Below, one piece after another: positions 38,275 through 55,964 of a DNA stretch of 64,000 nt. Each line of letters opens with the position of its first letter. Within the stretch, counting starts at the first letter, position 1. The notes under the pieces are model-generated. The model was not told the origin of the DNA, did no database searches, and saw only the letters and a list, made by a program, of their open reading frames with translations. Position numbers and translations under genes: made by a program. This stretch comes from Fluviirhizobium alvei (GTDB lineage Bacteria; Pseudomonadota; Alphaproteobacteria; Rhizobiales; Rhizobiaceae): assembly GCF_030551875.1 (NCBI RefSeq), contig NZ_JAUOZU010000007.1, positions 310,001-374,000 of the forward strand, read 5' to 3'.

Positions 38275-39552
38275 TCAGCCGCGGAACAGATATTCTTCTC
38301 GCGAGGCCGGTTTCATTTCGATGGAGAAGCCCGGCAGCTTCGGCGGCATATAGGCCGCATTGCGGATGTCGCAGGGCTCGATGAAATGCTCGTGCAGATG
38401 ATCGACATATTCGATCACCCGTCCCTCCATCGTGCCGGAAACGGCCACGAAATCGATCATCGACAGATGCTGCACATATTCGCACAGCCCCACACCGCCG
38501 GCATGCGGCCAGACCGGTAGATTGAACTTGGCGGCCAGCAGCAACACGCCCAGTACTTCGTTGAGACCGCCCATGCGGCAGGAATCGATCTGCACGATGT
38601 CGATGGCGCCATTGGCGATCATCTGCTTGAAGATGATGCGGTTCTGGCACATTTCCCCAGTCGCCACCTTCACCGGGGCCACGGCCTCGCGGATGACACG
38701 ATGGCCGAAAACATCATCGGGACTTGTCGGCTCTTCGATGAAGAACGGCTTACAGAACTGGAGTTTCTTGACCCAGTCGATGGCCTGGTTGACTTCCCAG
38801 ACCTGATTGGCGTCGATCATCAGGTAGCGGTCCGGACCAACCACTTCGCGAGCGATTGTCAGACGGCGGATATCATCCTCAAGATCGCGACCGACCTTCA
38901 TCTTGATATGCTTGAAGCCGGCATCGACAGCCTCCTGGCACAGACGACGCAATTTGGCATCGTCATAGCCGAGCCAGCCGGCCGAGGTCGTGTAGCAGGG
39001 ATAGCCGGTCGCTTCGAGCTGGGCGATACGCTCGGCCTTGCCGCCTTCGGCCTTGCGCAGGATGGCGAGTGCCTCGTCCCGCGTGATCGCATCGGTCAAG
39101 TAGCGGAAATCAACGATATCGACGATCTGTTCCGGCGTCATGTCCGCCACCAGCCGCCAGACCGGCTTGCCGGCTTGCTTTGCCAGGAGATCCCAGACAG
39201 CATTGACCACCGCACCGGTTGCCAGATGCATGGCCCCCTTGTCGGGTCCGATCCAGCGCAACTGGCTGTCGGAGGTGACATGGCGCCAGAAACGGCCCGG
39301 ATTTTCCAGCACCCAGTCGAGATCGAGCCCGACAACCAGATGCCGCATGGCGTTGATCGCCGCGCAGCAGATATCGTTGCCGCGACCGATCGTGAATGTC
39401 AGCCCGTGACCCTCCAGCCCCTCCTTGTCGGTCGAGAGGATGACATAGGCGGCAGAATAGTCGGGATCCGGATTCATGGCATCGGAGCCATCAAGGCCCA
39501 TGGATGTGGGAAAGCGCAGATCGAGGCTTTTAAGGTCAGTAATCCGGGTCAC
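38275..39552 (-). CDS. fucD: L-fuconate dehydratase
   Basis: 425 residues from a GTG start at 39552 (AAGAGA upstream); an upstream in-frame ATG at 39645 lacks support. Enolase-superfamily acid-sugar dehydratase, converting L-fuconate to 2-keto-3-deoxy-L-fuconate. The barrel-end catalytic set is complete: Lys217 and Lys219 (IKMKVGRD), metal ligands Asp247 (MIDANQ), Glu273/274 (FIEEPTSP) and Glu300 (ATGEM), and His350 (VWPHAGG). This spacing agrees with what I recall for characterised Xanthomonas FucD. The N-terminal RFPTSMGLDGSDAMNPDPDYS stretch, broken here at GSDAM, is typical of FucD. Operon neighbours supply the next two pathway steps. Confidence 0.93.
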   Translation of the reverse strand: MTRITDLKSLDLRFPTSMGLDGSDAMNPDPDYSAAYVILSTDKEGLEGHGLTFTIGRGNDICCAAINAMRHLVVGLDLDWVLENPGRFWRHVTSDSQLRWIGPDKGAMHLATGAVVNAVWDLLAKQAGKPVWRLVADMTPEQIVDIVDFRYLTDAITRDEALAILRKAEGGKAERIAQLEATGYPCYTTSAGWLGYDDAKLRRLCQEAVDAGFKHIKMKVGRDLEDDIRRLTIAREVVGPDRYLMIDANQVWEVNQAIDWVKKLQFCKPFFIEEPTSPDDVFGHRVIREAVAPVKVATGEMCQNRIIFKQMIANGAIDIVQIDSCRMGGLNEVLGVLLLAAKFNLPVWPHAGGVGLCEYVQHLSMIDFVAVSGTMEGRVIEYVDHLHEHFIEPCDIRNAAYMPPKLPGFSIEMKPASREEYLFRG

Positions 39553-39580: not shown

Positions 39581-40426
39581 TCAGACGTCAGCGATGAAGG
39601 TCTGCTTCTGGGTGCCAAGTCCTTCGATGCCGAGTTCGACGACATCGCCGGGCTTGAGGAAGCGCGGCGGCTTCATGCCGAGACCGACGCCCGGCGGCGT
39701 GCCGGTGGAAATCACATCGCCGGGATGCAGGCTCATGAACTGGCTGAGGTAGGACACGAGATGTTTGACGCCATAGACCATGGTTTTCGAATTGCCATCC
39801 TGCACCTTTTCACCATTGACGGTGAGCCACATGGGAAGCGCCTGCGGATCGGCAATCTCGTCCTTCGTCACCAGCCAGGGGCCGATCGGGCCGAATGTGT
39901 CGCAGGATTTGCCCTTGGTCCACTGGCCCTGGCGCTCGGTCTGGAAGGCGCGTTCGGACACATCGTTGATGGTGCAATAGCCGGCGACATAGTCGAGGGC
40001 ATCATCTTCGGAGACGTATTTCGCCGTCTTGCCGATGATGACGCCGAGTTCGACTTCCCAGTCGGTCTTTTCCGAACCGCGCGGGATCAGCACATTGTCA
40101 TTCGGACCGCAGATAGCCGAGGTCGCCTTCATGAAGATGATCGGCTCGGAAGGAACAGTCGCATTGGTTTCGGCGGCATGGTCCGAATAGTTGAGACCGA
40201 TGCAGATGAACTTGCCGGTTCCGGCGACGCAGGCCCCGATCCGTTCCCCAGCCGACAAGACCGGCAGGCTCGCAGGATCGATCGCAGCGATCTTCGCCAG
40301 ACCGTCAGGAGAAATCGCGGCACCGCCGATATCGGCCACATGGGCGGAAAGATCGCGGATCGTGCCATCGGCGGCGAGAATTGCAGGTTTTTCGGCGCCC
40401 GGAGCACCAACGCGCATGAGTTTCAT
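39581..40426 (-). CDS. Fumarylacetoacetate hydrolase family protein (probable 2,4-diketo-3-deoxy-L-fuconate hydrolase)
   Basis: 281 residues from the ATG at 40426 (AGGAAG upstream). The FAH fold is shown by FICIGLNYSDHAAET, the metal-binding acidic triad around EPIIFMKATSAI and TDWEVELGVIIGK, and the C-terminal GDVISTGTPPGVGLGMKPP. In the non-phosphorylating L-fucose route, FAH-family enzymes hydrolyse 2,4-diketo-3-deoxy-L-fuconate to pyruvate and L-lactate. The position between the SDR and fuconate dehydratase supports that role; other diketo acids remain possible. Upstream extension to 40654 is a shadow of the SDR gene. Confidence 0.88.
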   Translation of the reverse strand: MKLMRVGAPGAEKPAILAADGTIRDLSAHVADIGGAAISPDGLAKIAAIDPASLPVLSAGERIGACVAGTGKFICIGLNYSDHAAETNATVPSEPIIFMKATSAICGPNDNVLIPRGSEKTDWEVELGVIIGKTAKYVSEDDALDYVAGYCTINDVSERAFQTERQGQWTKGKSCDTFGPIGPWLVTKDEIADPQALPMWLTVNGEKVQDGNSKTMVYGVKHLVSYLSQFMSLHPGDVISTGTPPGVGLGMKPPRFLKPGDVVELGIEGLGTQKQTFIADV

Positions 40427-40443
40427 ATCAATCTTCCTGTCTG

Positions 40444-41181
40444 TTAGATCGTCCAGCCGCCATCGATGGCATAGGCCTGACCGGTCGTGAATGTGGCGCC
40501 GGCGAGATAGACGGCGAGGTCGGCAATCTCTTCCGGCGTGCCGAGACGACCCATGGCCTGGCGCGCCATGAAGGCAGCCCGGGTGGCCTCGAAATCGCTG
40601 CCCTGCGCCCGCATGCGATCCTGCAGCGACGGGCTTTCCACCGTGCCGGGGCAAATCGCGTTGATCCGGATGCCCTGCGTCACATAGTCGGCGGCGACCG
40701 ACTTCGTCAGTCCGATCACGGCCGCCTTCGTAGTCTGGTAGGCGAAGCGATTCGGCACACCCTTGATCGAGGAGGCGACCGAGGCGATGTTTATGATCGT
40801 ACCATCCTTGCGGTCGAGCATGCCCGGAAGCACGGCGCGGATCGTCCGCACCATCGACTTGACATTGAGGTTGAGGGCGAAGTCGAGATCTTCGTCCTTC
40901 ATCTCGAGGATCGACCCGGCATGAACGAAACCGGCCGCATTGACCAGAACATCGACCGGACCGATTGCGCCGAGGACGGATTTGACTTCCGCATCATCGA
41001 GCACATTCAGTTTGGTGGTGGCGATGCCGGTTTCCGCCGTCAGCTTGGCGAGAAGCTCGGTGTTGATGTCGGTCGCGTGCACGGTCGCGCCCGCCTGTGC
41101 GAAGGCTTCGGCGATCGCCCGTCCGATGCCTTGCCCCGCCGCCGTCACCACGACTGTCTTGCCGGAGAAATCCTTGCTCAT
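40444..41181 (-). CDS. SDR oxidoreductase, 2-keto-3-deoxy-L-fuconate dehydrogenase-like
   Basis: 245-residue classical short-chain dehydrogenase. The cofactor motif TAAGQGIG (13-20) is followed by Asp38 after strand 2 (ATDIN), which favours NAD over NADP. NAAG lies at 81-84, catalytic Ser is near 134-137, and Tyr148 and Lys152 form the YxxxK motif. The C-terminus carries the GGWTI end. Features and context match 2-keto-3-deoxy-L-fuconate dehydrogenase, making the 2,4-diketo acid for the FAH enzyme encoded 17 bp downstream. L-fucose dehydrogenase activity is a second option. Confidence 0.88.
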   Translation of the reverse strand: MSKDFSGKTVVVTAAGQGIGRAIAEAFAQAGATVHATDINTELLAKLTAETGIATTKLNVLDDAEVKSVLGAIGPVDVLVNAAGFVHAGSILEMKDEDLDFALNLNVKSMVRTIRAVLPGMLDRKDGTIINIASVASSIKGVPNRFAYQTTKAAVIGLTKSVAADYVTQGIRINAICPGTVESPSLQDRMRAQGSDFEATRAAFMARQAMGRLGTPEEIADLAVYLAGATFTTGQAYAIDGGWTI

Positions 41182-41202
41182 TGTTCGTCCTTTCTGATCG
41201 GC

Positions 41203-41655
41203 TCAGGCCGTCTTGATCTTGCGTTCGACGATCAGGATATGATCGGCAGCGAGCACAACCTCGCCCTTCTGGTTGATCACTTCGCAGCGTTCCACCACCC
41301 GGCCGGAATCGGCGCGTTTGGGATCATCTTCCTTGGCGGAAATCGTCACCCGAGTCTTGATCGTATCGCCGATATGCACGGGACGGATGAAGCGCAGACG
41401 ATCATATCCATAGGAGAAGGCAACAGGATTGATGAGCGAGGCCGTGAGCCCGACACCGATCGAGAAGACCATCGTGCCATGGGCGATCCGCTGGCCGCCG
41501 GGCAGCGTCTTGGCAAATTCCGCATCCATGTGATGCGGAAAGAAATCGCCGGTATGGCCGGCATGGACGACGAAGTCGGTTTCGGTGATCGTACGGCCGG
41601 TGGTCAGCCGCACATGGCCGAGTTCATAATCTTCGAAATAGATATATTGTTCCAT
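41203..41655 (-). CDS. MaoC-like hot-dog fold dehydratase/hydratase
   Basis: 150 residues from the ATG at 41655. Single hot-dog domain of the MaoC/R-specific hydratase family. The catalytic motif is intact: Asp37 and His42 in [11 protein letters not shown], corresponding to the GDxNPLH-type signature. Later come [11 protein letters not shown] and [19 protein letters not shown]. Related enzymes act on CoA thioesters, which is unexpected inside a sugar-acid operon. A paralogue encoded at 50730-51251 shares the SYGYDxLRFI-x-P core but lacks the histidine. Confidence 0.85.
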
Positions 41656-41659
41656 GGTC

Positions 41660-42733
41660 TCAGGGTCTCTCGGCCAGCGGCGTCGCCGGCGTGGCATTCG
41701 ATTGGTAGGCTGCTTCGACGAGAGCCATGGTCATCCAGGAATCCTCGACGGAGCTTACGAGTTCGGTGTCTTCACCGGTTGCGAACCGTTGCAGATTGGC
41801 CATGCGTCCAACGAAGGCATCCGGAAACCAGGCGCCCTTGAGCGGCACGTCGATCCAGTCATCCCCACCCTGGGGGCGGATCTGCAGAATATCCGGTTCG
41901 CCCTTCGGATAGTTGAGATTGACGCCAAGCTGAAGATAGGCAGCGCCTTCCGTGCCACAGACGCGGAATTCGCAGGCCTGGTATTTGCGGCCGAACTTGT
42001 GGTCATGATTGATCGAGAGCGCGCAGCGCACGCGATCGCCATAATCGAGGATCGCACTGGTGCGCGTCTGCGCCATCTCGTGGTTGGGATGGCCGAGCGA
42101 ACGGGCATGGATGCCCTTGGGATCGCCAAGTATCTGGCGGATGAGATCGAGATAGTGGATCGAATGCATCGTGATTTCGATCCGCGGCAGCCCCTTGAGA
42201 AAGGCCCACAGCTCCCACGGCGTGTCGAGCGCCAGCCAGGCGTCGAAATCCACCACCTCACCCAGCAATCCCTTGGCGATCGCATCCTTGAGCGCCAGCA
42301 TCATCGGCGCGAACCGCAACTGGAAATTCACCGCAGCCTTCAGGTTCTTGCGCCGGCAGATTTCGAGAATGATGGTGGCCGCAGCAAGATCAGCCCCCAT
42401 CGGCTTCTGGATCAGCACGGCTGCTCCATCCGGGAGCGCTTCGAGAACCTTCGCATGCGCGGCCGGCGGGGTTGCCAGATCGAAGATCGCGCCTTCGACT
42501 GCGATTGCTTCCTCGACGGAGCGGAAAGCGGTCACACCCCAGGTTTCGGCGAGCCTCGAAGCCTTGTCGAAATCCGGATCGTAAAGACCGGCGACCGGAA
42601 AGCCACCCTTGCGATAGGCCGGGAAATGCGCATCTCCAACGATCGAGCCGGCACCGAACGTCACGATCGGGCGCGGATTGCTCGGCAGCGGCCAGGATTG
42701 GGCGAGAGAGTTGGGGTCGAACAGAGCCGTCAT
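41660..42733 (-). CDS. Gfo/Idh/MocA family oxidoreductase
   Basis: 357-residue NAD(P)-dependent sugar oxidoreductase. The Rossmann motif [15 protein letters not shown] starts near residue 26. The family's EKP-type motif appears as IQKPMGADL (about 108-116) with the catalytic lysine kept, and the substrate-domain [28 protein letters not shown] stretch, broken here at LKGLP, contains the usual histidine. It could oxidise a sugar C1 to a lactone, giving the substrate for the divergent fuconolactonase-like enzyme (inference). Its GAGGGG ribosome site lies inside the end repeat of the palindromic element just upstream. Confidence 0.85.
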
Positions 42734-42961: not shown

Positions 42962-43291
42962 TCAATCATGATGGAACACCTCTTCCATCTCGGCCCACCA
43001 CTCGCCCTCCTTGCGGGTCGAGAGAGGGTTCTGGCAGGGCATGCACACAGCCCACCAGTCCTGCGTGGTGGGGTCTGCCGCCATCTTCGCCATATCGGCG
43101 GCAAAATCGCTGCCATGATATTCGAAATAGGAGAACAGCAGGTTCTCCGGCTCCTTAAGGAAAATCGAATAGTTGCGGATGTTGCAGGCCGAAATCATCT
43201 TCAGCACATCTGGCCAGACGGCCGCATGCAGCCGTTTGTATTCGGCGATCTTTTCGGCGTTAAGACCGATGACACTGCCCTTGCGCTCCAT
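42962..43291 (-). CDS. L-rhamnose/L-fucose mutarotase-like protein (RhaM, DUF718 family)
   Basis: 109 residues from the ATG at 43291, with GGAGG upstream inside the end of the dehydratase gene. RhaM-family ferredoxin-like dimer that interconverts alpha and beta anomers of a 6-deoxy sugar. Recognisable features are the KIAEYKRLHAAVWPDVLKMI motif with the catalytic histidine, IRNYSIFLKEPENLLFSYFEY, and the Trp-rich C-terminal end (QDWWAVCMPCQ and GEWWAEMEEVFHHD). It supports a deoxy sugar such as L-fucose or L-rhamnose as the operon's substrate. Confidence 0.9.
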   Translation of the reverse strand: MERKGSVIGLNAEKIAEYKRLHAAVWPDVLKMISACNIRNYSIFLKEPENLLFSYFEYHGSDFAADMAKMAADPTTQDWWAVCMPCQNPLSTRKEGEWWAEMEEVFHHD

Positions 43292-43292
43292 C

Positions 43293-44411
43293 TCACACCT
43301 CCCCTGTGAACGTCGCGGTGAATTCCGGAATCGATCGGCGGCGCACTTCTTCCCAGTCCCAGTCGATGCCGATACCCGGCTCCGACGGAGCCAGCGCATG
43401 GCCATCCACGATCGCCATCTTCGCACCGGTGATCTCGTCGAGCTGCGGAATATATTCGACATATTTGCCGTTCGGCACCGCGCAGGTGAGGCTCACATGC
43501 AGTTCCATCAGGAAATGCGGGCAGACCGGAATGTCGAAGGCTTCCGCAGCATGCGCCACCTTGAGCCAGGGCGTGATGCCGCCGATCCGGCCGACATCGA
43601 CCTGAACGATGGAGCATGCGCCCTTCTGCATATATTCGCGGAAATGGCGAATGGAGTAAAGCGATTCGCCCACTGCGATCGGCGTCGCGGTCGAGGCACT
43701 CAGTCTGGTATGGCCATCGATGTCATCGGCCGCCATCGGCTCCTCGATCCAGGCCAAATCGATCGCTTTCAGCCGCTCGGCACGGCGGATCGCCTCATCC
43801 AGCCGGAAGCCCTGGTTGGCATCCGTCATGATCTCATAACCGTCGCCGACCGCGGCCCTGACGGCTTCCAGCCGCGCGAGATCTTCAGAACCGTGCGGCT
43901 TGCCGATCTTGACCTTCGAGCCATTGAAGCCCTTGGCCTTGGCGGCGAGCGCATCGTCCACCAGCGCCTGTGTCTCGATATGGAGCCAGCCGCCTTCGGT
44001 CGTATAAAGCGGGCAGCGATCCTTGGCGCCGCCGGCAAGCTTCCAGAGCGGCAGTGCCTGCTTTTTCGCCCGCAGGTCCCATAGTGCCGTATCGATCGCC
44101 GCCAGGGCGATCGCCGTGATCGCGCCGATCGTGGTTGCATGGGTCGCGAATTCGAGATCATGCCAGATCGCTTCAATACAGTCGGCATCACGGCCGATGA
44201 TCCGTGGGATCAGATGATCGGCAAGCAGCCGCATCACCGACGAACCACCGGTTCCGATCGTGTAGGAATAACCGGTACCGACAGCGCCATCGCTATCGGT
44301 AATGGTCACGATCGGCGTTTCCTGGCTCACAAAACTCTGGATCGCGTCGGTCCGCTTGACCTTCGGCACCAGGTCGACCATCCGGATGTCAACTTTTTCG
44401 ATCCTTGCCAT
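43293..44411 (-). CDS. Enolase superfamily (mandelate racemase subgroup) sugar-acid dehydratase
   Basis: 372-residue barrel enzyme, distinct from fucD in the same operon. The catalytic residues are Lys166 and Lys168 (SKVKIGK), metal ligands Asp197 (MTDANQGF), Glu223/224 (WIEEPM) and Glu249 (VGES), and His299 (CPHFLMELH). This KxK/His set fits MR-subgroup acid-sugar dehydratases such as those for galactarate/talarate or lyxonate. Start 2 bp after the ABC ATPase stop and 1 bp before the next gene, so it is firmly in the operon. Its presence suggests a second aldonate substrate. The specificity cannot be read by eye. Confidence 0.87.
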   Translation of the reverse strand: MARIEKVDIRMVDLVPKVKRTDAIQSFVSQETPIVTITDSDGAVGTGYSYTIGTGGSSVMRLLADHLIPRIIGRDADCIEAIWHDLEFATHATTIGAITAIALAAIDTALWDLRAKKQALPLWKLAGGAKDRCPLYTTEGGWLHIETQALVDDALAAKAKGFNGSKVKIGKPHGSEDLARLEAVRAAVGDGYEIMTDANQGFRLDEAIRRAERLKAIDLAWIEEPMAADDIDGHTRLSASTATPIAVGESLYSIRHFREYMQKGACSIVQVDVGRIGGITPWLKVAHAAEAFDIPVCPHFLMELHVSLTCAVPNGKYVEYIPQLDEITGAKMAIVDGHALAPSEPGIGIDWDWEEVRRRSIPEFTATFTGEV

Positions 44412-44413
44412 GA

Positions 44414-45511
44414 TCAGGTCCTGAGGGTCTTGCCGGTCTGGGCGTCAAACAGATGCGCCTGCGACAGGTCGAAACTCATGTTGACCACGTCACCCGGACG
44501 GAGATTGCGCGGATTCAGCATGCGCGACACCCAGTCACGACCGGTGAATTCGGCAAAGACCAGCGTCTCGTTGCCGAGCGGTTCGGTGATTGAGACCTTG
44601 AGATCGGCCTGATGGACTTCATGCGCTTCACCGGAATGCAGTCCGTGCCCCGTCGGATAGACATCGTCCGGGCGCAATCCGAAAACGACCTTCTGTCCAT
44701 TGACGAGGCTATCGCGGAACTGGGCCGGAATGGGCAGGCTATCGCCATTGGCGAAGACGATCCGTCCGTCGCTGATCTGGCCCTCTTCGAGGTTCATCGG
44801 CGGTGAACCGATGAAGCCGGCAACGAACCGGGTGGCGGGGCGCTTGAACACCTCATCCGGCGTTCCGACCTGCTCGATGTAACCGTCGCGCATGATGACG
44901 ATCCGGTCCGAAAGCGTCATCGCTTCCACCTGGTCATGCGTCACATAGACAACGGTGGAATTGACCTTGGCATGGAGCTTCTTGATCTCGGTGCGCATCT
45001 GCGTTCTGAGCTTGGCATCGAGATTGGACAGCGGCTCGTCGAACAGGAAGACATCCGGATTGCGTACGATCGCGCGGCCCATGGCAACGCGCTGGCGCTG
45101 ACCACCGGAAAGCTGTGCCGGCCGCCGGTCGAGCAGATGGGTGAGGTCGAGCGTTTTCGCCGCATCGTCGACGCGGCTTGCTATTTCAGTCGGCGACTGG
45201 CCAGCGATCTTGAGCGAGAAGCCCATATTCTCGCGCACGGTCATATGCGGATAAAGCGCATAGGACTGGAACACCATGGCGAGATTGCGCGAACGCGGCG
45301 GCAGGTCGTTGACCACCGTGCCGCCAATCTCGATCGCACCGCCGGAAACATCTTCGAGGCCGGCGATCATGCGCAACGTCGTCGACTTGCCGCAGCCGGA
45401 CGGGCCGACAAGCGCGATGAATTCGCGATCTGCGACCTCGAGATTGATCCCGTGGACGACTTCCAGGGCGCCGTAGCGCTTGACCAGGTTTTTCAGAGAG
45501 ACTGTGGCCAT
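44414..45511 (-). CDS. Sugar ABC transporter ATP-binding protein (MsmK/UgpC type)
   Basis: 365-residue ATPase of the carbohydrate uptake CUT1 class. Walker A GPSGCGKST is near 36-44, the signature LSGGQRQRVAMGRA near 134-147, and Walker B VFLFDEPLSNLDA near 154-166. The C-terminal TOBE/regulatory domain (about 240-365) contains FGLRPDDVYP, seen in MalK-like proteins. Encoded 4 bp after the second permease, with ATPase-permease-permease-binding-protein order read backwards along the operon. Confidence 0.95.
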   Translation of the reverse strand: MATVSLKNLVKRYGALEVVHGINLEVADREFIALVGPSGCGKSTTLRMIAGLEDVSGGAIEIGGTVVNDLPPRSRNLAMVFQSYALYPHMTVRENMGFSLKIAGQSPTEIASRVDDAAKTLDLTHLLDRRPAQLSGGQRQRVAMGRAIVRNPDVFLFDEPLSNLDAKLRTQMRTEIKKLHAKVNSTVVYVTHDQVEAMTLSDRIVIMRDGYIEQVGTPDEVFKRPATRFVAGFIGSPPMNLEEGQISDGRIVFANGDSLPIPAQFRDSLVNGQKVVFGLRPDDVYPTGHGLHSGEAHEVHQADLKVSITEPLGNETLVFAEFTGRDWVSRMLNPRNLRPGDVVNMSFDLSQAHLFDAQTGKTLRT

Positions 45512-45515
45512 TTTT

Positions 45516-46382
45516 TCAACCCTTGACGGCGCCGGAGGTCAATCCGGATACGAGATGTTTCTGTACAGCGAAGGTGAGAAGCAGTGCCGGAATGATCATC
45601 ACGACGGCGAGCGCGCACATGCCGCGCCAGTCGATGGTGAATTCGGCGGTGTAATCGAGGAGCCCGACCGGCAGGGTCTTGGAATTGACCGAGCGGGTGA
45701 GGTTCGAAGCGAGGGCGAACTCGTTCCACGACGTGAGGAAGGCGAAGATACCCGAGGACGCGATGCCGGGGCCCGCGAGCGGGAATTCGACCTGCCAGAA
45801 GGCCTGCCAGCGTGTGCAGCCATCGATCTGGGCAGCTTCGGCGAGATCCTTCGGCACCTGCCGGAAAAAGCCGTCGATCAGCCAGATGGTGAAGGGCACG
45901 TTGAGCGCGACATAGGCGAGGATGAGGCCGAAATGCGTATCGAGAAGGCCGAGTTTCGCATAGACGAAGAAGAGCGGCAGCGAGAGCGCAATGCCGGGCA
46001 CCGTCCGCGTCAGCATCAGGCCCAGGAACCAGCCGCCCTTGCCGGGAAAGCGGAACCGGGCAAAGGCGTAACCGCCGGACATGCCGATGGCGATGGCAAT
46101 CACCGTCGATGTAACCGACACGATCAGCGAGTTGCGGAAATAATCGAGCACGGGGATACCGCCCTTGCCGACGCCGGAGAACATGGCGACATAGGCATCG
46201 AACGACAGTTCGTTCGGAATCCAGACCGGCGGCTTGGCCATGATTTCAACGGTCGGCCGGAGCGAGGACAGAACGATCCAGAAGCCCGGCAGGCAGATGA
46301 CCGTCATCGCCAGGAAGAGGCCGATGAAATGGCCGATCTTCAGGAGGCGGCGACGCAGTCGGTGGGAATTGTTGTTTTCCAT
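45516..46382 (-). CDS. Sugar ABC transporter permease (MalG-like)
   Basis: 288 residues from the ATG at 46382, which has CGGAG eight bases upstream; two in-frame GTG codons lie just before. Six predicted transmembrane helices. The EAA coupling loop reads AEAAQIDGCTRWQAFWQVEFPLAGPGI, broken here at DGCTRW, and docks on the ATPase. MalG-type second permease of a CUT1 importer, starting 2 bp after the first permease's stop. Confidence 0.93.
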   Translation of the reverse strand: MENNNSHRLRRRLLKIGHFIGLFLAMTVICLPGFWIVLSSLRPTVEIMAKPPVWIPNELSFDAYVAMFSGVGKGGIPVLDYFRNSLIVSVTSTVIAIAIGMSGGYAFARFRFPGKGGWFLGLMLTRTVPGIALSLPLFFVYAKLGLLDTHFGLILAYVALNVPFTIWLIDGFFRQVPKDLAEAAQIDGCTRWQAFWQVEFPLAGPGIASSGIFAFLTSWNEFALASNLTRSVNSKTLPVGLLDYTAEFTIDWRGMCALAVVMIIPALLLTFAVQKHLVSGLTSGAVKG

Positions 46383-46384
46383 GG

Positions 46385-47281
46385 TCACCACTCCGTACCG
46401 ACCTGGAGGCGGGCTGCGGCCAGCTTGCGATAGAAATAGACGGTAAAGACGATCGACAGCAGAATCGAGAAATAGGCCATGGCATTGGCCATGCCCATCT
46501 TCGCATCCGAATAGGCGGTCCGCGCCACTAGCGTCCAGAGCAGTTCTGTGCGACCGGCCGGACCGCCATCGGTCATGATCTTGACGATGTCATAGGCACG
46601 GGCGACGTCGAGCGAGCGGATCGTCATGGCAATGAAGGCAAAGGGCATGATGAAGGGCCAGGTGACATAGCGGAAGGTCTGGAACGGCGTGCAGCCATCC
46701 ACTTTCGCGGCCTCGATCGGTTCCTTCGGCATGGCGAGCAGACCCGCCAGGATGAGGATCGCAAAGACCGATGTCGATGACCAGATTTCGGCTACGGCAA
46801 TCGAGAAGAAGGCAAGGTTGCCGTCGATGAGCCATGGAATGGCCGTGTTGGTAATCCCGAGCGCCTGCAACGCATTGTTCACGAGCCCGACATTGTCGTT
46901 GAACATGAACTTGAACTGGAAGCCGACAAGCAGCGGCGAGAACATCATCGGGAACATCATCAGCGTACGCAGGATGCGCTGGCCGCTGGTCGCCTTTTCG
47001 ACAAGCATGGCAAGGCCGAGGCCGAGCAGCATTTCGAGGTTCAGAGCCACTGTCAGCAGCACGACCGTTCTCAGGAATGCCACCCAGAAATCCCAATCCG
47101 CCAGCAGTTTGGCGTAGTTGCGGAACCCGATGAAAGTCCAGATCGTCTCAGGCTTGGTCAGCCTGAACGGTGTGAAACTCGAATAGAAGGACAGGATCAG
47201 CGGTACGATGACCACTGCGGCAAGAACCAGCGCCGCGGGCAGAAGCAATAATAGCGGCGCGGAAGATTTCCATCCTCTCAT
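46385..47281 (-). CDS. Sugar ABC transporter permease (MalF-like)
   Basis: 298 residues from the ATG at 47281 with GGAG eight bases upstream; an in-frame GTG at 47288-47290 is less likely. Six transmembrane helices, with the EAA loop PIEAAKVDGCTPFQTFRYVTWP near 195-216 (split at DGC). First permease of the importer. It is separated from the binding-protein gene by a strong intercistronic hairpin, a normal device for giving the binding protein higher expression than the membrane subunits. Confidence 0.93.
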   Translation of the reverse strand: MRGWKSSAPLLLLLPAALVLAAVVIVPLILSFYSSFTPFRLTKPETIWTFIGFRNYAKLLADWDFWVAFLRTVVLLTVALNLEMLLGLGLAMLVEKATSGQRILRTLMMFPMMFSPLLVGFQFKFMFNDNVGLVNNALQALGITNTAIPWLIDGNLAFFSIAVAEIWSSTSVFAILILAGLLAMPKEPIEAAKVDGCTPFQTFRYVTWPFIMPFAFIAMTIRSLDVARAYDIVKIMTDGGPAGRTELLWTLVARTAYSDAKMGMANAMAYFSILLSIVFTVYFYRKLAAARLQVGTEW

Positions 47282-47367
47282 CCGTGGCACTCCGGCAAAT
47301 TCAGATCAGAATAAACAGATAGCGCAATGGCTTTCCGTTGCGAATGGCGACCTCAGTCGGGCCGCCT

Positions 47368-47405
47368 AAAAAAGTCGGGCGCATTCCAGACGGAATACGC
47401 CCGAC
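47368..47405 (-). terminator. Intercistronic terminator/attenuator after the binding-protein gene
   Basis: Read on the minus strand: a 14-bp stem (47374-47387 with 47392-47405, one G-U pair) with a 4-nt loop, followed by six T residues. It lies 13 bp after the binding-protein stop and 87 bp before the permease start, so most transcripts should end here, with some read-through. Confidence 0.85.
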
Positions 47406-47417
47406 TGGGGGAGGATC

Positions 47418-48737
47418 TTAAAGCGCGCCGGCTTCCTCGAGAATTTCTGTTGCCTTCTTGGCAGCGTCATCAAGAGCCTGCTTGGAGGTCTTGTCGCCAA
47501 GGATGGCAGCCTGAAGTTCCGGATAGACGGCGTTGGAGATTTCGATCCACGACGGGGTCTGCGGTACCGGGAAAGCATGCTGGGCAGCTTCCTGGAACGC
47601 CGACAGGACTTCCTTGCGGAACGGATCGCTCTCGGCCTGCTTGATGTTGTATTCCCAGACGGCCGTACGGGTCGGCAGCGGGCCACCGGCCGATTCCAGC
47701 TTCTGGCTGTCTTCGTTGGTCAGGAACCAGACGAGCGAAGCAGCTGCATCCTTGTTGGCGCAGGATTCGGTGACCGAGAAGCCATGGTGACCGGACCAGC
47801 CGGTGCGCTTGCCCGACGAACCGGCCGGCTGCACCTTCACGCCGACATTGCCGGCAACCTTGGACGACTTCGGATCGTTGAAGAACCCGGCCCAACCCGG
47901 CCAATCGAGATTGAGGGCGATGGTGCCCGACGCAAAGCCCTGGCCGAGATCGTCCCAGAGATAGTTGGTGGTACCGGCCGGCACTGCCTTGTTCTTGTAC
48001 ATGCGGACGAACCAGTCGAGCGCGCGCACGCCGGCTTCCGAATTGAAGGCCGGCTTGCCTTCGGCATCGAGATACTCGCCGCCTTCAGCAACCAGCATTT
48101 CGTAGAAGCGACCGTTGATAGCTTCCTCCTTGCCTGCGAACTGGGTGCCGTAGAAATCCGGCGGATTGGAGAAGAACTCGGCCTGGTCGGCGAGATCGGC
48201 CCAGGTATCCGGCGGCACGAGATCGCGGCCATACTTGGCCTTGAAGGCGGCCTTCTTGGCTTCGTCCTGATAGAGGCTCTTCTGATAGTAGAGAGCGGAA
48301 ACGTCGAACTGCGCGCGCGGCAGCATGACGAGCTTGTTGTCGAGCGTCGACGCCATGATCGTGGCCGGCACGAAACCATCGATTTCCGACTGCGGCAGAA
48401 GTGCGCTGAGATCGGTATAGATGTCCGGGTATTGCGGCGCGAACGACGAATGGTTCGACCCAACGCACCAGGTGATGCTGTTGGATGCGATGTCCGACTT
48501 GATTTCCTTGTCGAGTTCGAAATGGTTCTTCTTCGACAGAATGTTGACCTTGGCACCGGTCAGCTTTTCCCATTCGCCGATCCGGGCATAAAGGCCCTCA
48601 TACTGCTGGCCGCCGATCAACTTGGCGTCGATCGTCACCCCGTCAAACTTACCGGGAAGCTCGGCAGCAATCGCCACCGCCCCGAAGGCCATCAGACCGA
48701 TGGCGCCGGCGGAAACGCCGGCAAGCAATTTTTTCAT
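47418..48737 (-). CDS. Sugar ABC transporter periplasmic binding protein
   Basis: 439 residues from the ATG at 48737 (GGAGGAAGTC upstream). The N-terminal signal peptide (MKKLLAGVSAGAIGLMAFG to about residue 25) directs it to the periplasm. The mature part is a family 1 extracellular solute-binding fold (GVTIDAKLIGGQQYEGL, then EWEKLTGAKVNIL and aromatic-rich sugar-contact regions). First gene of the long sugar operon, and expected to set its uptake specificity. A 22-bp palindromic site lies 50 bp upstream of the start. Confidence 0.93.
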   Translation of the reverse strand: MKKLLAGVSAGAIGLMAFGAVAIAAELPGKFDGVTIDAKLIGGQQYEGLYARIGEWEKLTGAKVNILSKKNHFELDKEIKSDIASNSITWCVGSNHSSFAPQYPDIYTDLSALLPQSEIDGFVPATIMASTLDNKLVMLPRAQFDVSALYYQKSLYQDEAKKAAFKAKYGRDLVPPDTWADLADQAEFFSNPPDFYGTQFAGKEEAINGRFYEMLVAEGGEYLDAEGKPAFNSEAGVRALDWFVRMYKNKAVPAGTTNYLWDDLGQGFASGTIALNLDWPGWAGFFNDPKSSKVAGNVGVKVQPAGSSGKRTGWSGHHGFSVTESCANKDAAASLVWFLTNEDSQKLESAGGPLPTRTAVWEYNIKQAESDPFRKEVLSAFQEAAQHAFPVPQTPSWIEISNAVYPELQAAILGDKTSKQALDDAAKKATEILEEAGAL

Positions 48738-48786
48738 GACTTCCTCCCAAAATCCGTTTCGGCCACCAGCCTTGGGGCCACAAACA

Positions 48787-48906: not shown

Positions 48907-49695
48907 ATGGATTCGGAAGACAATGATCGCTATCGCGCACCCGCACTGGACAAGGGCCTCGACATCATCGAGCTCTTGTCAGGTATAGAAGGTGGCCTGA
49001 CCCAGGCGGAAATCGCCAAGCGCCTCGGCAAGAACGCAAATGAATTCTACCGCATGCTCGACCGGCTCGTTCGCCGCGGCTACGTGACCCGTCTCGATGG
49101 AGACCGCTACTCGCTGTCGCTCAAGCTGTTCGGTCTGGCACAGCTGATTGCGCCTGTTCGCCGGCTCGCCTCCTATGCCACGCCATTGATGCGGGCGCTG
49201 GCGGATGCCACGCGCCAGGCCAACCAGCTCGTGGTGTTCGATCGTGGTGCCGCCGTGGTGATCGCCCAGCAGGAGGCGCCCGGATACTGGGGCATTTCCA
49301 TTCGCGTGGGCTCCCATATCAGCCTCTATAATACCGGCTCCGGCCATATCCTTCTCGCCTTCCATTCGCCGGACGAGCGGGCCATGATGATGCAGGAATA
49401 TGAGGGGTCGGCCGAGGCGGCACCGGAACTGAAACCGGAATTCTTCACCCGGCTCGACCAGATCCGCGAGCGCGGCTACGAAATGATGCCCTCATCGCAG
49501 ACCGCCGGCGTCGTCAACCTGTCAGCTCCGATCCTGGGGCCGGATGGACGGGCAATCGCGGCCCTGACGGTTCCCTACATTACCCTGATCAACACGCCCG
49601 ATGCGCCCGACATGTCGGAAACGATCCAGTTGCTGCTGGCCACCAGCCACAAGCTCGCGCACCAGGTTGGATTAGACATTACCCCGATCGCATAA
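48907..49695 (+). CDS. IclR family transcriptional regulator
   Basis: 262 residues from the ATG at 48907, with GGAGG six bases upstream. The winged helix-turn-helix lies at about 12-65 (ALDKGLDIIELLSGIEGGLTQAEIAKRLGKNANEFYRMLDRLVRRGYV, in pieces), followed by the IclR effector domain (about 80-255) with NQLVVFDRGAAVVIAQQ, ISIRVGSHISLYNTGSGHILLAF and the C-terminal NLSAPILGPDGRAIAALTVPYI. It is divergent from the sugar operon and upstream of the fuconolactonase-like gene, so it is the likely regulator of both (inference). Confidence 0.92.
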   Translation: MDSEDNDRYRAPALDKGLDIIELLSGIEGGLTQAEIAKRLGKNANEFYRMLDRLVRRGYVTRLDGDRYSLSLKLFGLAQLIAPVRRLASYATPLMRALADATRQANQLVVFDRGAAVVIAQQEAPGYWGISIRVGSHISLYNTGSGHILLAFHSPDERAMMMQEYEGSAEAAPELKPEFFTRLDQIRERGYEMMPSSQTAGVVNLSAPILGPDGRAIAALTVPYITLINTPDAPDMSETIQLLLATSHKLAHQVGLDITPIA

Positions 49696-49872: not shown

Positions 49873-50715
49873 ATGATCATCGACACGCATCTGCACATCA
49901 TCGACCTTGAGGCATTGCATTATCCATGGCTGGGCAGCGTTGAAGCGCTCAACCGGATGTTCCGCTACGAGACCTATGCGGCGGAAGCACGAAAGGTCGG
50001 TATCGCAGCGACGCTTCACATGGAGGTCGACGTTGCCGAAACGGAGATCGTTGCCGAATCGGATTACATTTCGGGCCTTGCAGCGCAACCGGGCAGCCTG
50101 CTGGTCGGCGCCATTGCCTCCTGCCGTCCGGAGCAGGATGGCTTTGCCCGCTATCTCGATCTCGTCCGTGAGAAGGCCATCGTCAAGGGCTTTCGCCGCG
50201 TCCTGCATGTGATGCCGGACGATCTGTCGGAAAGCGCGCTCTTTCGCGAAAACATCAAGCGTCTTTCCGGCACCGGCCTGACCTTCGATCTTTGCGTTCT
50301 TCCACACCAGATGGAGCGGGCCATCGCCCTCGTCGATCTCGCACCCGATGTCACCTTCATCGTCGATCATTGTGGTGTCCCGGATATCAAGGGCGGCAAC
50401 ATTGATGGCTGGAATAAGGGAATTTCCGAAATCGCCCGGCGCCCCAACGTGATTGGCAAGCTTTCCGGCATCTCCATCTATGGCGATGGCGAAAACTGGT
50501 CGGTGGAAACACTGCGCCCCTATGTCGAGCACACGATCGGCAGCTTCGGTTTCGATCGCATGGTCTGGGGCAGCGATTGGCCGGTCTGCACGCTCGCTGG
50601 GTCTCTTTCGACCTGGGTTGCCGCAACGCATGCCTTGCTTTCCGGCGTATCGCCCGAAGACAAAGCAAAGCTGCTCTCGGGCAATGCCCGAAAGCTCTGG
50701 AACCTGTCTGTCTGA
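49873..50715 (+). CDS. Amidohydrolase-2 family lactonase (L-fuconolactonase/L-rhamnonolactonase-like)
   Basis: 280 residues from the ATG at 49873 with GGAGGAAACAGG before it; the in-frame ATG at 49795 is unsupported. TIM-barrel amidohydrolase. The N-terminal DTHLHIID gives the His6/His8 metal pair, [10 protein letters not shown] the next histidine region, and [10 protein letters not shown] the catalytic aspartate near the C-terminal third. This layout is that of L-fucono- and L-rhamnono-1,4-lactonases, which open the lactone to the aldonate used by FucD. Context supports fuconolactonase; other lactones are possible. Confidence 0.86.
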
Positions 50716-50729
50716 AGAAGGCAATCGTA

Positions 50730-51251
50730 ATGAGCACTGTCGGAATCGAAAGCACATTCCCCCGCACCATGCCCGAAGATCATGCCCGCTTGCCCGTGTG
50801 GAATGCGGAAAACTGGTTCTACGAGGATTTCGAGATCGGTCACAAGATCCGCTCGCTTCGCCGCACCATATCGGAAGGCGAGAGCATGCAGTTCAATGCG
50901 CTCGTGCTCGATATGCATCCCTATGTCGGCGACCAGATCTTTGCCGAAACCGAAGGCCTGTTCGGCAAGCGGCTGGTCGCGGGTGCCTTCGTCTTCTCAG
51001 CCGGGCTCGGGCTCGTCGCCACCAACTGCGTCAATGCCTTCTCTTATGGCTATGACAAGCTGCGCTTCATCAAGCCCACCTTCATCGGCGACACGATCTA
51101 CACGATCCGCACCAATCTTTCGAAGGAGCCCAAATATGCGGAACTCGGCCTGATCCGCGCATCCTACGAGGTCTTCAAGGGCGAAGGCGAACTGGTGCTC
51201 TATTGCGAGCATATTCAGACGGTGAAATATCGGCCAAGAGCAGAAGCCTGA
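50730..51251 (+). CDS. MaoC-like hot-dog protein lacking the catalytic histidine
   Basis: 173 residues from the ATG at 50730, 14 bp after the lactonase gene. The hot-dog fold is clear: [16 protein letters not shown], then [14 protein letters not shown] and [19 protein letters not shown], closely paralleling the paralogue at 41203-41655. Where that paralogue has GDFFPHH, this one has LDMHPYV, so the aspartate (Asp61) remains but the catalytic histidine is replaced by Val66. It may be a binder, use another residue, or belong to a CoA-thioester hydratase subgroup with a different motif. Probably in an operon with the lactonase. Confidence 0.82.
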
Positions 51252-52061: not shown

Positions 52062-53167
52062 TGACCAAATGCCTCAAGCAATGCTTCTTCACAGACAACG
52101 TCGTCTTTCGACCGGCGTCTCGCCCTCATCCCGCTACCCTTGCGTTTTCCGCCCTCGGAAGCCTCATCCGATCCGGCCTGCACGCCATCTTCGGCGACCG
52201 GTTCGGCCGCTCCCGCCCGCGCCGGGTGTTCGGCGAAGAATGAGGCCATCACGGTCTCGACGCCCGTCGGATTGACCGAGCGCAGGTTCGGCTCGAAAAA
52301 ATAGGAACGCACATTCGGCGCCATGATGATCTCGTAGGACGGAAAATAATCGACATTGTCGAATTCTTCGCTGAGTTCGGTGCAGACTGTACGCAGCAAC
52401 GATTTCGATCGCATCGTTGCCACCAGCACGTGGTTTTCAGATGCAGTCGCCGTCAGCGGCACGGGCGAAACCGTCAAGATGAAACGCATGTTGGGATTGA
52501 TCGCCAACAGCTTTTCGCGCACCTTGACCATGTCGCCATGAACATCTGAAAACTTGAGATTGCGGAAGCGGAAAATCGCAGGATCGAATTCTCCAGCAAT
52601 AACACCCGGACAGGTGGGATAGACAATGCCGTTGTCGATCCGCTCCCAGGTTTCGGTCAGGCCGAGCGTAAAGATAAGCACATCGGTCTTCGCAAACATC
52701 TGAGAAACGAGGCCCAGATGATATTTTCGATGTTCGAGCACTTCTTCAATCGTATCGAGGCCTTCCGGCTCGACAGCAGGTCGCAACGCGTCGTAATAGC
52801 GCCCATTCTTTTCCCAAACATCGGTCTCGCGCACCGTCCCGGTTTCGCAATCCTCAATCAGCTGCAACAACTGCCTCGCCGTATAAAGATTGCCGTAACG
52901 CGCCGAATAGATGCCGTATCCGAAATCGCTCGCCAGACCGGCATCGACCCAGGCCGGCACCGGTTCCATATCGATGGTCCGGTACCCGTTCTTGCGCAAG
53001 CTTCGAGCCACATGCTGGGCGAAACAGGAACCGGCGGTGGCAATGTTGGCGTCGAAATCGATATCGAACTTCTTTTTGTAGAGCCTCTTCATATTCACGG
53101 CATGAACATCAGCCACGCCGCTACGCCAGTATTTCGACGAATCCAGTTTACTATAGGGATTGGCCAT
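52058..53167 (-). CDS. GSCFA domain protein
   Basis: 369 residues from the ATG at 53167 (GGAG upstream). The family-defining GSCFAQHVARSL motif is at 46-57. Other conserved elements are VFTLGLTETWE (here FTLGLTETWE), RFILTVSPVPLTATAS, and the FPSYEIIM strand, all typical of the SGNH-related GSCFA family. The C-terminal 60 residues are charged, low complexity (GGKRKGSGMRARRRS). GSCFA proteins often sit in glycan or capsule loci and are suspected acetyl-transfer or esterase proteins. Linked with the SGNH-like gene. Confidence 0.87.
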   Translation of the reverse strand: MANPYSKLDSSKYWRSGVADVHAVNMKRLYKKKFDIDFDANIATAGSCFAQHVARSLRKNGYRTIDMEPVPAWVDAGLASDFGYGIYSARYGNLYTARQLLQLIEDCETGTVRETDVWEKNGRYYDALRPAVEPEGLDTIEEVLEHRKYHLGLVSQMFAKTDVLIFTLGLTETWERIDNGIVYPTCPGVIAGEFDPAIFRFRNLKFSDVHGDMVKVREKLLAINPNMRFILTVSPVPLTATASENHVLVATMRSKSLLRTVCTELSEEFDNVDYFPSYEIIMAPNVRSYFFEPNLRSVNPTGVETVMASFFAEHPARAGAAEPVAEDGVQAGSDEASEGGKRKGSGMRARRRSKDDVVCEEALLEAFGQ

Positions 53168-53407
53168 ATTGGTCTCCAGAAACTCATGCCCCGCCACAAG
53201 GCAGCCTTGCGTTGTGTATGCCCTCACCCCAGTCCGGTCAAGCATCAGCATACTTCGACAAAGCCAAACTTAAGGCTGTCAAGCGAGCAGAATCAATGGG
53301 GAAGACACGCCACAACTTTGTGAAGACTGAGGCGCCGTGCCGCGGATCTTCAAAGGGAGCACTGGATGGAAAGTGGGCGACGACTATCCCTCGCCCTCCT
53401 TCGTCGC

Positions 53408-54544
53408 TCAAGTCCCGCTCAGACGAAACATCCGGTTGAGGTCGGCCACCACGGTTTCCGCCGCCTCGCCGGATTTCAGCCCCGCATTGAGCCGCACCGA
53501 CGCAGCATGCTGGAACGCCATATAGCCATTGTGGCGTGGGCGCACCCAGGCGCCTTCAAGCGTCGGACGCGTGTTGATGTAAAAATCCGCGGTCGCATCA
53601 TTGACCGTTTCATCTTCCCAGGCCGCGGCGTGGCCCGGCTGACCACCGGCAGCGGCATAGGGGCCGCGCTGAACCTCGCCGCTGGCGATCCAGTAGGCGA
53701 AATCGATCGCGGCTTGCTTTGCCGCGGAAAATGCCGAAACAGCGATACCGGTGCCACCGAGTGCTGACCCCGCCGGACCGATGACGCCGGCTTCCGGAAT
53801 GTCGGTGAAGCTCAGCACATGCGGGCGGAAACCCTCGATCGCATAATTGACATAGCCGTATATATAGGGCGAGCAGGCAATGACGCTACCCTTCTCAGCC
53901 ATCTTTTCCGAAACCGCGATCGGATCCATCTCGAAAGCGGCCGGATCGATCATCGACACGAGTTCGGCAATCATCTGATAGGCGACGATGCCGGTTTCCG
54001 TATCGACGAGATCGCCACCGGCCTCAGTGCTGCAGGGTGCCATCAGGTTGGCGCACAAAGTATAGAAGGTCATGAGCGAATGCGGCGGCCGCAGCGCGAG
54101 CAGAACGCCGCCCTGCTCTGCAAGTTCCAGCACATCGTCGAAAGTTTCGCAGGGATCGGCAAGGTCGTCGCGAAAGGCCTGAACCTGGGTGGCCGCATCG
54201 ATCGGAAAGGCCCATTGCCGGCCCTGCCAATTGTAACTGCGGAAGGATTCGCCCACCGAACCGGCCGAAAGCGCCTGCAGCTCGGCTTCACGACCATCGA
54301 TATCGAGCGGTTCCAGGCAGTTTTCGTCGGTGATCTGGCCAACATGCGGATGATCGATGACGATCAGATCGTATTGACGCGCCAGTTCCTCGACCGAAAA
54401 ACTTTCGAAATCCTGCAGAGAGCGTTTGTCCCATTCGATCTCGACGCCGGTCTTCTGCTGCCAGAGACGCGCGCAGGCCACCATCGGATCATAGCCACGC
54501 GGATGGCTCCAGGTCATGCCTTTCAGCTTCACCGGCGCGCTCAC
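53408..54544 (-). CDS. Solute-binding-fold protein without signal peptide, coupled to a CoA-transferase
   Basis: 378 residues from a GTG start at 54544 (CGGAG eight bases upstream). The sequence reads as a family 1 extracellular solute-binding protein (WSHPRGYDPMVACARLWQQKTG, YDLIVIDHPHVG, FPIDAATQVQAFRDD, GGTGIAVSAFSAAKQAAIDFAYWI), yet it begins MSAPVKLKGMTWSH with no hydrophobic leader, and no upstream in-frame signal sequence exists because the CoA-transferase frame overlaps there. No permease or ATPase is adjacent. It overlaps the CaiB/BaiF gene by 4 bp. It may be a cytoplasmic ligand-binding protein or chaperone for the CoA-transferase (inference). Confidence 0.8.
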   Translation of the reverse strand: MSAPVKLKGMTWSHPRGYDPMVACARLWQQKTGVEIEWDKRSLQDFESFSVEELARQYDLIVIDHPHVGQITDENCLEPLDIDGREAELQALSAGSVGESFRSYNWQGRQWAFPIDAATQVQAFRDDLADPCETFDDVLELAEQGGVLLALRPPHSLMTFYTLCANLMAPCSTEAGGDLVDTETGIVAYQMIAELVSMIDPAAFEMDPIAVSEKMAEKGSVIACSPYIYGYVNYAIEGFRPHVLSFTDIPEAGVIGPAGSALGGTGIAVSAFSAAKQAAIDFAYWIASGEVQRGPYAAAGGQPGHAAAWEDETVNDATADFYINTRPTLEGAWVRPRHNGYMAFQHAASVRLNAGLKSGEAAETVVADLNRMFRLSGT

Positions 54545-55701
54545 AGGCCGAACTCCGAACGAATAAGGTCGGAATGCTCACCCACAAGCGGAGCAGCGCG
54601 ATTGCCATGCGGCCGCGCGCCATTCACCCGGATGGGCGAAGATGTTGTCAGGATCGACACATTGTCTTCCCGTTCGACTGTCTGCAGAATGTCCATCACC
54701 TTGAAACCGTCATGCGCCATAAGCTCCTCCCAATTGAGGACGCGCGCGCACCATATATCGGCCGGCTCGAGGATTGAAAGCCACTCATCCACGCTTTTCG
54801 TCGCAACCTTGTCGGCAATGATGCGCTTGATCGTATCGCGCTCGCCGAACCAGCTGGAAGGATCGTCACGATAGGGCGCGAGATCCCCGATATCCATGAG
54901 ATCCTGCAATCGCGAGATCGGCGTCATGGCAATGGCGATATAGGCATCGGCGGCCTTGTAGACGCCGTAAGGCGCCGAAAGATAGGCGTGCGCAGAACGG
55001 AATTCCGAGCGCTTCGGCATCCGTCGTCCATCATTGAGATAGGTGGTCAGCACTTCGAACTGGAAATCGACCAGCGCTTCGAGCAGGCTGGTTTCCACAT
55101 GGCTGCCCTTGCCGGAAATGCCCTTGCGGACCAGTGCCGCCAGAATGCCCTGACAGATCGCGGCGCCGGCCAGCATATCACCCACAGCAAGGCCGAACGG
55201 CACCGGCCCCTGCCCTTCATCGCCGTTGAGCCACATGACGCCGGAACGCGCCTGCGCCAGAAGGTCCTGGCCCGGACGCTTCACCCAGGGCCCTTCCTCG
55301 CCATAACCACTGATCGAAGCATAGACGATCGAAGGATTGATCGCCTTGACCGATTCATAATCGAGGCCGAGCCGCTCGATGACGCCGGGGCGGAAATTCT
55401 GGATCATCACATCGGCACGCGCGAGCAGCTTGCGCAACGCCGCCATGTCCGCCTCGTTCTTCATATCGATCGCGAGGCTCTGCTTGCCGCGGTTGATCGC
55501 ATGAAAAATCGTGGAATCGCCGCCGATTTCGGTGTCGCTCAGATAGAGCCGACGCGAGAGATCGCCACCATCCGGCCGCTCGACCTTGATCACCCGCGCA
55601 CCCAAATCCTGCAGCCTCAGCGAACAGTAGGGCCCGGACAGAAACTGGCTCATGTCCACGACAAGCAGCCCCTCGAGCGGCATTTCAACGACATTATTCA
55701 T
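54541..55701 (-). CDS. CaiB/BaiF family CoA-transferase
   Basis: 386-residue class III CoA-transferase. The N-terminal LVVDMSQFLSGPYCSLRLQDLGA and VIKVERPDGGD bind CoA. Asp175 in VGDMLAGA corresponds to the catalytic aspartate that forms the acyl anhydride. NFRPGVIERLGLDYE and YASISGYGEEGP are further family motifs. The start has GGAAGC upstream, and an inverted repeat TGAATA-N3-TATTCA lies 66 bp upstream. Coupled to the solute-binding-like gene. Substrate unknown; a sugar-derived carboxylic acid is possible given the neighbourhood. Confidence 0.9.
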   Translation of the reverse strand: MNNVVEMPLEGLLVVDMSQFLSGPYCSLRLQDLGARVIKVERPDGGDLSRRLYLSDTEIGGDSTIFHAINRGKQSLAIDMKNEADMAALRKLLARADVMIQNFRPGVIERLGLDYESVKAINPSIVYASISGYGEEGPWVKRPGQDLLAQARSGVMWLNGDEGQGPVPFGLAVGDMLAGAAICQGILAALVRKGISGKGSHVETSLLEALVDFQFEVLTTYLNDGRRMPKRSEFRSAHAYLSAPYGVYKAADAYIAIAMTPISRLQDLMDIGDLAPYRDDPSSWFGERDTIKRIIADKVATKSVDEWLSILEPADIWCARVLNWEELMAHDGFKVMDILQTVEREDNVSILTTSSPIRVNGARPHGNRAAPLVGEHSDLIRSEFGL

Positions 55702-55781: not shown

Positions 55782-55964
55782 AATATGGGAGTCTTTGCAA
55801 GCGGACAGCGAAAAATCTTGAGCGATGGGAGGATCGATCCCGACAAAGGGATGTGAAACGGCGGTTGCTTCGATGAATGGCTAGCCAACCCAATTTTCTT
55901 CACTTGCGATTTGGCAAATTCGAAGGCGAAATGCTGCAACGTTTCCAGCCAAGAGGATTTGACC

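Follow-up and report, generated by a model that had tools for sequence, protein, structure and literature searches.

A leaderless solute-binding-fold protein paired with a family III CoA-transferase in bacterial sugar-catabolic gene clusters

The gene pair and its sugar cluster

The window analysed here is a stretch of 64,000 nucleotides from Fluviirhizobium alvei (contig NZ_JAUOZU010000007.1), in which two genes of the minus strand overlap (Table 1). One encodes a family III (CaiB/BaiF) CoA-transferase, the other a protein with the fold of ABC solute-binding proteins (SBPs), of leaderless, cytosolic type, which we refer to as cSBP and number with its GTG start codon as residue 1. The start of the cSBP gene and the stop of the CoA-transferase gene have the four bases GTGA in common, as the initial annotation had stated, and a GGAG lies about 10 bases 5' of the GTG. 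In the cSBP reading frame a TGA is found 12 codons 5' of the GTG, with no ATG, GTG or TTG in between, so that a leader cannot be encoded; the earlier view that the protein starts without a leader, and that one is unlikely to have been missed, therefore stands. The protein matches the Pfam profile SBP_bac_8 (PF13416) with 50.6 bits, above the cut-off of 27 bits (E 3e-13), which, together with the fold model described below, bears out its assignment as an SBP fold.

The pair belongs to a putative cluster for a 6-deoxysugar, L-fucose-like, in which homologues of the non-phosphorylative L-fucose pathway include a dehydrogenase, a fuconate dehydratase, a diketo hydrolase and a mutarotase, plus a lactonase-related protein that scores below its model cut-off. 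It had been stated that no permease or ATPase lies beside cSBP; none directly adjoins it, but a complete ABC sugar importer is encoded about 5-9 kb away and carries its own SBP. This sugar cluster with its own importer had been overlooked, and it alters the likely role of cSBP. The pair lies about 13 kb from the importer in S. meliloti, which has a pSymB copy of cSBP (locus L080/L031), and the same kind of cluster occurs in Nitratireductor, Qingshengfaniella and Shinella. Since the L-fuconate dehydratase homologue is kept in the clade of the window, dehydration is not missing there. The two genes that separate the nearer MaoC gene from the pair look like an insertion, the MaoC, CaiB and cSBP genes being contiguous in Roseibium.

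Two further features of the region were recorded. Just upstream of the CoA-transferase gene (55911-57911, plus strand) lies an ORF for an RTX-like protein with repeated glycine/aspartate-rich motifs of the GGxGxD type. Beyond it, the minus-strand ORFs 57922-59076 and 59494-60681 comprise a second CaiB-type gene beside an ORF reading as an acyl-CoA dehydrogenase, with a LysR-like ORF adjoining. The second CaiB-type protein scores 591 bits against the 750 bits of the curated succinate--glutarate CoA-transferase model, and this region probably serves glutarate catabolism, unrelated to the cSBP pair.

Table 1. Features of the sugar cluster and the cSBP gene pair (positions in the window).
Feature	Position	Strand	Remarks
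L-fuconate dehydratase homologue	38317..39444	-	83% to annotated Shinella protein
Fumarylacetoacetate hydrolase (FAH) family protein	39581..40443	-	cleavage of diketo-deoxy sugar acid expected
SDR-family sugar (acid) dehydrogenase	40444..41181	-	
MaoC/PaaZ-type hydratase	41194..41640	-	additional to MaoC at 50736..51251
Gfo/Idh/MocA oxidoreductase	41660..42733	-	
L-rhamnose/L-fucose mutarotase family protein	42962..43297	-	
Mandelate racemase/enolase-family protein	43293..44411	-	
Complete sugar ABC importer	44414..48740	-	UgpC-type ATPase, two permeases, leader-bearing SBP (MKKLLAGVSAGAIGLMAFG...)
IclR-family regulator	48907..49695	+	
Amidohydrolase related to L-fucono-1,5-lactonase	49873..50715	+	91.5 bits, model cut-off 400
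MaoC-family hydratase	50736..51251	+	81% to Roseibium MaoC directly before CaiB-cSBP
Two genes, one unassigned, one GSCFA-domain	51285-53251	-	between MaoC (50736..51251) and CaiB-cSBP
cSBP, leaderless cytosolic-type SBP-fold protein	53408..54544	-	378 aa, GTG start; Pfam, fold model
Family III (CaiB/BaiF) CoA-transferase	54541..55701	-	386 aa; CoA_transf_3, Asp175

The cSBP family, its start and its fold

The window genome carries one copy of cSBP. As the genome samples overlap and few candidates were scored per genome, the counts for the family are lower bounds: cSBP was found in at least 70 of the 247 genomes sampled from its own bacterial family and at least 41 of the 297 sampled from its order (E <= 1e-20), with profile matches in at least 6 of 289 class genomes and at least 16 of 349 phylum genomes (E <= 1e-40). 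A scan of genome contigs confirmed at least 577 relatives. The family is found in Pseudomonadota, Actinomycetota and Bacteroidota, and is plasmid-borne in Streptomyces and in Persicobacter (Bacteroidota). Neither NCBIfam, PHROGs nor comparison with PDB sequences yielded a specific family name.

The homologues begin at the same position, the motif L-x-G-[MLI]-T-W-[DSN]-H-x-R-G making up the first strand, and the 93 that were read start at this motif or a few residues away from it. Within their first 45 residues, hydropathy peaks at a median value of 0.72 and nowhere above 1.59; leader-bearing SBPs encoded in these clusters reach 2.2-3.2, and that of the window importer 2.39. The initial annotation had named a leader at the family start in homologues as one of two observations that would speak against it; the homologues are leaderless throughout, and both the window protein and the family as a whole lack the export signal or lipoprotein leader that defines ABC SBPs. 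A wrongly placed start was rejected on the upstream frame and the conserved start of the homologues, and a truncated or decayed SBP on the family-wide conservation. The absence of a leader in cSBP is well supported, and the protein is almost certainly cytosolic in vivo. One annotated control SBP (locus L033, 12205-13458) has a peak hydropathy of 0.87, its annotated start (MAQELPGKF...) apparently lying past the leader; the window homologue of this importer SBP has a clear leader, and start errors of this kind could mimic leaderless SBPs.

An AlphaFold2 model of cSBP, built on an alignment of 30 natural sequences with plasmid-record sequences left out, reached a pLDDT of 95.8 and a pTM of 0.93. 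Its best match among solved structures was LpqY (Z 38.2, rmsd 2.5 over 366 residues), followed by SmoF (38.1), MalE3 (38.0) and TMBP (37.9), with Z scores differing by less than 1 treated as tied. The family profile likewise matched TMBP (E 2e-20) and LpqY (E 3e-18), and PF13416 was matched by 30 of 33 family members (E 0.001). Trp12, Arg16, Trp38, Asp59, Asp64, Pro66, Asp116, Tyr234, Gly301, Gln302, Trp309, Arg335, Pro336 and several other residues are invariant in 33 diverse cSBPs. The pocket was judged from alignments. In these, R356 of an alpha-glycoside-binding protein, the R356A mutant of which was solved with sugars, has Arg335 as its counterpart, and at the equivalent of W287, a mutated site of the same protein, cSBP has a small residue (both sites were taken from PDB titles). 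Asp64 aligns with a sugar-binding Asp of TMBP, a protein in which Asp70 and Arg364 are contact residues. That the pocket stays constant across clusters for different sugars suggests, at the level of the alignments, either a chemical feature shared by all, for example a carboxylate, or catalysis, and the polar invariance across such clusters would be easier to reconcile with one shared ligand or with an enzyme than with a carrier specific for a sugar.

Association with CoA-transferases and hydratases

The CoA-transferase of the window matches CoA_transf_3 with an E-value of 3e-98, and its Asp175, presumably the catalytic residue as in other family III CoA-transferases, is kept in all 58 cSBP partners that were readable at the alignment column. 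The best NCBIfam model was succinyl-CoA:mesaconate CoA-transferase, with 222 bits against a cut-off of 700, and no NCBIfam equivalog cut-off was reached that would assign the enzyme to a known substrate.

The initial annotation had proposed a search for the same gene pair in other genomes, and the pairing proved to be kept across many of them, in both gene orders. After reduction of the loci to 91 cSBP lineages less than 75% identical, a family III CoA-transferase gene adjoins cSBP on the same strand in 60 of the 91 (41 upstream, 19 downstream), lies elsewhere in the fetched locus in 18 and is absent from it in 13. The tree requires at least five switches of gene order among the CaiB-adjacent cases, so the adjacency survives rearrangement. 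With four CoA_transf_3 genes in the window genome, chance adjacency would amount, as a rough estimate, to about one in a thousand per gene. The distances among cSBPs correlate with those among their CaiB partners (r 0.92 over 1770 pairs), a value that includes shared ancestry. The gene partnership of cSBP with the CoA-transferase is well supported, and the two proteins probably also work together. Long frames in loci L044, L065, L066, L068 and L078 were inspected as candidate fusions of cSBP with CaiB or MaoC and gave only SBP domains or nothing, hence no sign of a fusion. In loci L239 (8998-12473), L200 and L201, two CaiB genes in tandem come after cSBP and may encode a CoA-transferase of two subunits.

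Of the 77 lineages with CaiB, 68 have a hydratase gene, for either an enoyl-CoA hydratase (ECH) or MaoC, no more than 8 kb away, as opposed to 3 of the 13 that lack CaiB (Fisher p 3e-6, the lineages not being fully independent); in several of the nine CaiB lineages that lack a hydratase, the gene may sit beyond the fetched DNA. Several CaiB-less clades have an enolase-type or mannonate-dehydratase-type gene beside cSBP. CaiB is thus not strictly required, and the more general association of cSBP appears to be with the chemistry of sugar acids, which is our chief reason for taking a sugar acid rather than CoA to be its ligand, an assignment that we consider somewhat favoured. Two further kinds of locus were noted. 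An ECH-type cluster from the genus of the window (L044:7818-9314) keeps ECH and FAH, and no CoA-transferase was found there between the upstream genes and cSBP; in L220:9695-11542 and L221:10198-11199, cSBP without CaiB is found near DUF2264 proteins, in a different neighbourhood.

A subgroup from Pseudosulfitobacter, Sinorhizobium and Streptomyces combines an SDR, a DUF4432 protein, CaiB, cSBP, ECH and usually an FAH-family enzyme, which in Pseudosulfitobacter is related to 2-keto-3-deoxy-D-arabinonate dehydratase. In 12 genomes of this subgroup, no IlvD/EDD gene was found on the cSBP contig up to a distance of about 200 kb, nor an enolase-superfamily gene up to about 5 kb from cSBP. Pseudosulfitobacter (locus L088), Azospirillum (L240) and Streptomyces (L084) are among those that lack a nearby dehydratase. 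The cluster looks like a Weimberg-type route from which the aldonate dehydratase is missing, and by analogy with carnitine metabolism CaiB and ECH could supply the dehydration through a CoA ester.

A proposed role and its alternatives

We tentatively propose that cSBP may be a cytosolic binding protein for the oxidative (non-phosphorylative) breakdown of sugars, in which it would partner a family III CoA-transferase. The family would derive from maltose/trehalose-type ABC binding proteins. A sugar, in the window a 6-deoxyhexose such as L-fucose, would be imported and oxidised to the sugar acid, and the clamshell of cSBP would bind the free acid, with Arg16, Arg335, Arg337 and His14 at the carboxylate and Asp64 and Asp116 at the hydroxyls. 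Through physical contact with CaiB, cSBP would hand the acid over to the CoA-transferase, and the resulting acyl-CoA would be (de)hydrated in a CoA-dependent manner by the accompanying MaoC or enoyl-CoA hydratase, the CoA then being passed on to the next acid as in the carnitine CaiB/CaiD system. We regard delivery as about as likely as not, and as more likely than catalysis.

Catalysis would make cSBP an enzyme on an SBP scaffold, acting on a sugar acid, lactone or CoA ester by lactone opening, epimerisation or elimination. Some 20 invariant positions, many of them polar (Trp12, Arg16, Asp64, Asp116, Gln302, Trp309, Arg335), across paralogues from clusters for different sugars point in this direction, as does the persistence of cSBP in clusters where CaiB is absent. 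However, the conserved Asp and Arg residues correspond in position to ligand contacts in ordinary sugar SBPs, and the fold matches fall in the sugar-transport group, with no known SBP-fold enzyme among the matches listed; on the whole we consider this explanation possible but rather unlikely. It is still less probable that cSBP is a cytosolic sensor which signals the sugar or its acid either to the CoA-transferase or to a regulator of the cluster. A leaderless binding-protein fold with no evident transport partner of its own would suit such a function, and regulators (IclR, LacI, GntR) occur in most cSBP clusters, but the overlapping neighbour gene encodes an enzyme, the clusters have regulators of their own, and CaiB, rather than any single regulator family, is the neighbour that recurs across the types of regulator. 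That cSBP is a transport SBP entering the periplasm by a route not recognised so far, or one truncated recently, is highly improbable: the cluster does encode a sugar ABC importer, but this importer has its own leader-bearing SBP, cSBP has no alternative start and the leaderless start is kept family-wide in three phyla.

The proposed binding protein can be compared with several known systems. With the maltose/trehalose-type SBPs (TMBP 1eu8, LpqY 7ape, MalE3 6dtq, SmoF 7ofy) cSBP has in common the two-lobe fold, the SBP_bac_8/SBP_bac_1 profiles and the Asp and Arg-Pro positions of the ligand site; unlike them, it has no leader and no permease gene directly beside its own, has lost the ligand-site Trp and has a CoA-transferase partner, and its N-terminal TW-H-R motif, GGQP motif and other invariants are distinctive. 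The carnitine enzymes CaiB and CaiD are a CoA-transferase and a crotonase that carry out (de)hydration at the level of the CoA ester with recycling of CoA. They resemble the module described here in placing a family III CoA-transferase beside an enoyl-CoA hydratase, whereas the cSBP module is located in sugar clusters and has an additional SBP-fold partner that is absent from the carnitine system. Modules of the itaconate/mesaconate type consist of a CoA-transferase with a MaoC hydratase; the window cluster shares this combination, and the mesaconate model is the best, if far below cut-off, for the window CaiB, but no CitE/RipC-type lyase was seen in the cluster and an SBP-fold partner is present. 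Weimberg and other non-phosphorylative pathways (L-fucose, D-xylose) share SDR and Gfo/Idh dehydrogenases, lactonase-type and FAH-family enzymes with the cSBP clusters, the ECH subgroup differing in that CaiB, cSBP and ECH occupy the place in which one would look for an IlvD/EDD or enolase-type dehydratase. MqnA, MqnD and THI5/NMT1 are cytosolic enzymes on SBP-like folds; they belong to other SBP subgroups, and we know of no link between them and CoA-transferases.

The suggestion of a new use of the fold was too broad, as a class of cytosolic proteins that match SBP Pfam profiles is already known (PMC9602780); what looks undescribed is a cytosolic maltose/trehalose-type SBP coupled to a CoA-transferase. 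In the open-access literature we found no description of the cSBP family or of the pairing, nor, by gene tags, of the S. meliloti locus, both of which are weak evidence of absence, and the passages found in a paper on filling gaps in catabolic pathways contain no mention of a cSBP-like protein. It is conceivable, if doubtful, that CoA-transferase, cytosolic sugar-type SBP and ECH or MaoC form an undescribed and widespread module for CoA-thioester-dependent dehydration of sugar acids, used in some pathways instead of IlvD/EDD or enolase-type dehydratases, with a former transport protein as the intracellular substrate-binding component.

As the family lacks the export signal, its members should not be named transport SBPs. 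The names given to them by annotation pipelines, "extracellular solute-binding protein" and "carbohydrate ABC transporter substrate-binding protein", are almost certainly wrong, and the proteins affected occur in more than one in four of the genomes sampled from their own bacterial family. Should the partnership hold, a transport protein would have been redeployed for intracellular metabolism, and sugar catabolism would include a CoA-dependent step where none has been described, a step that the subgroup without a recognisable dehydratase makes directly testable.
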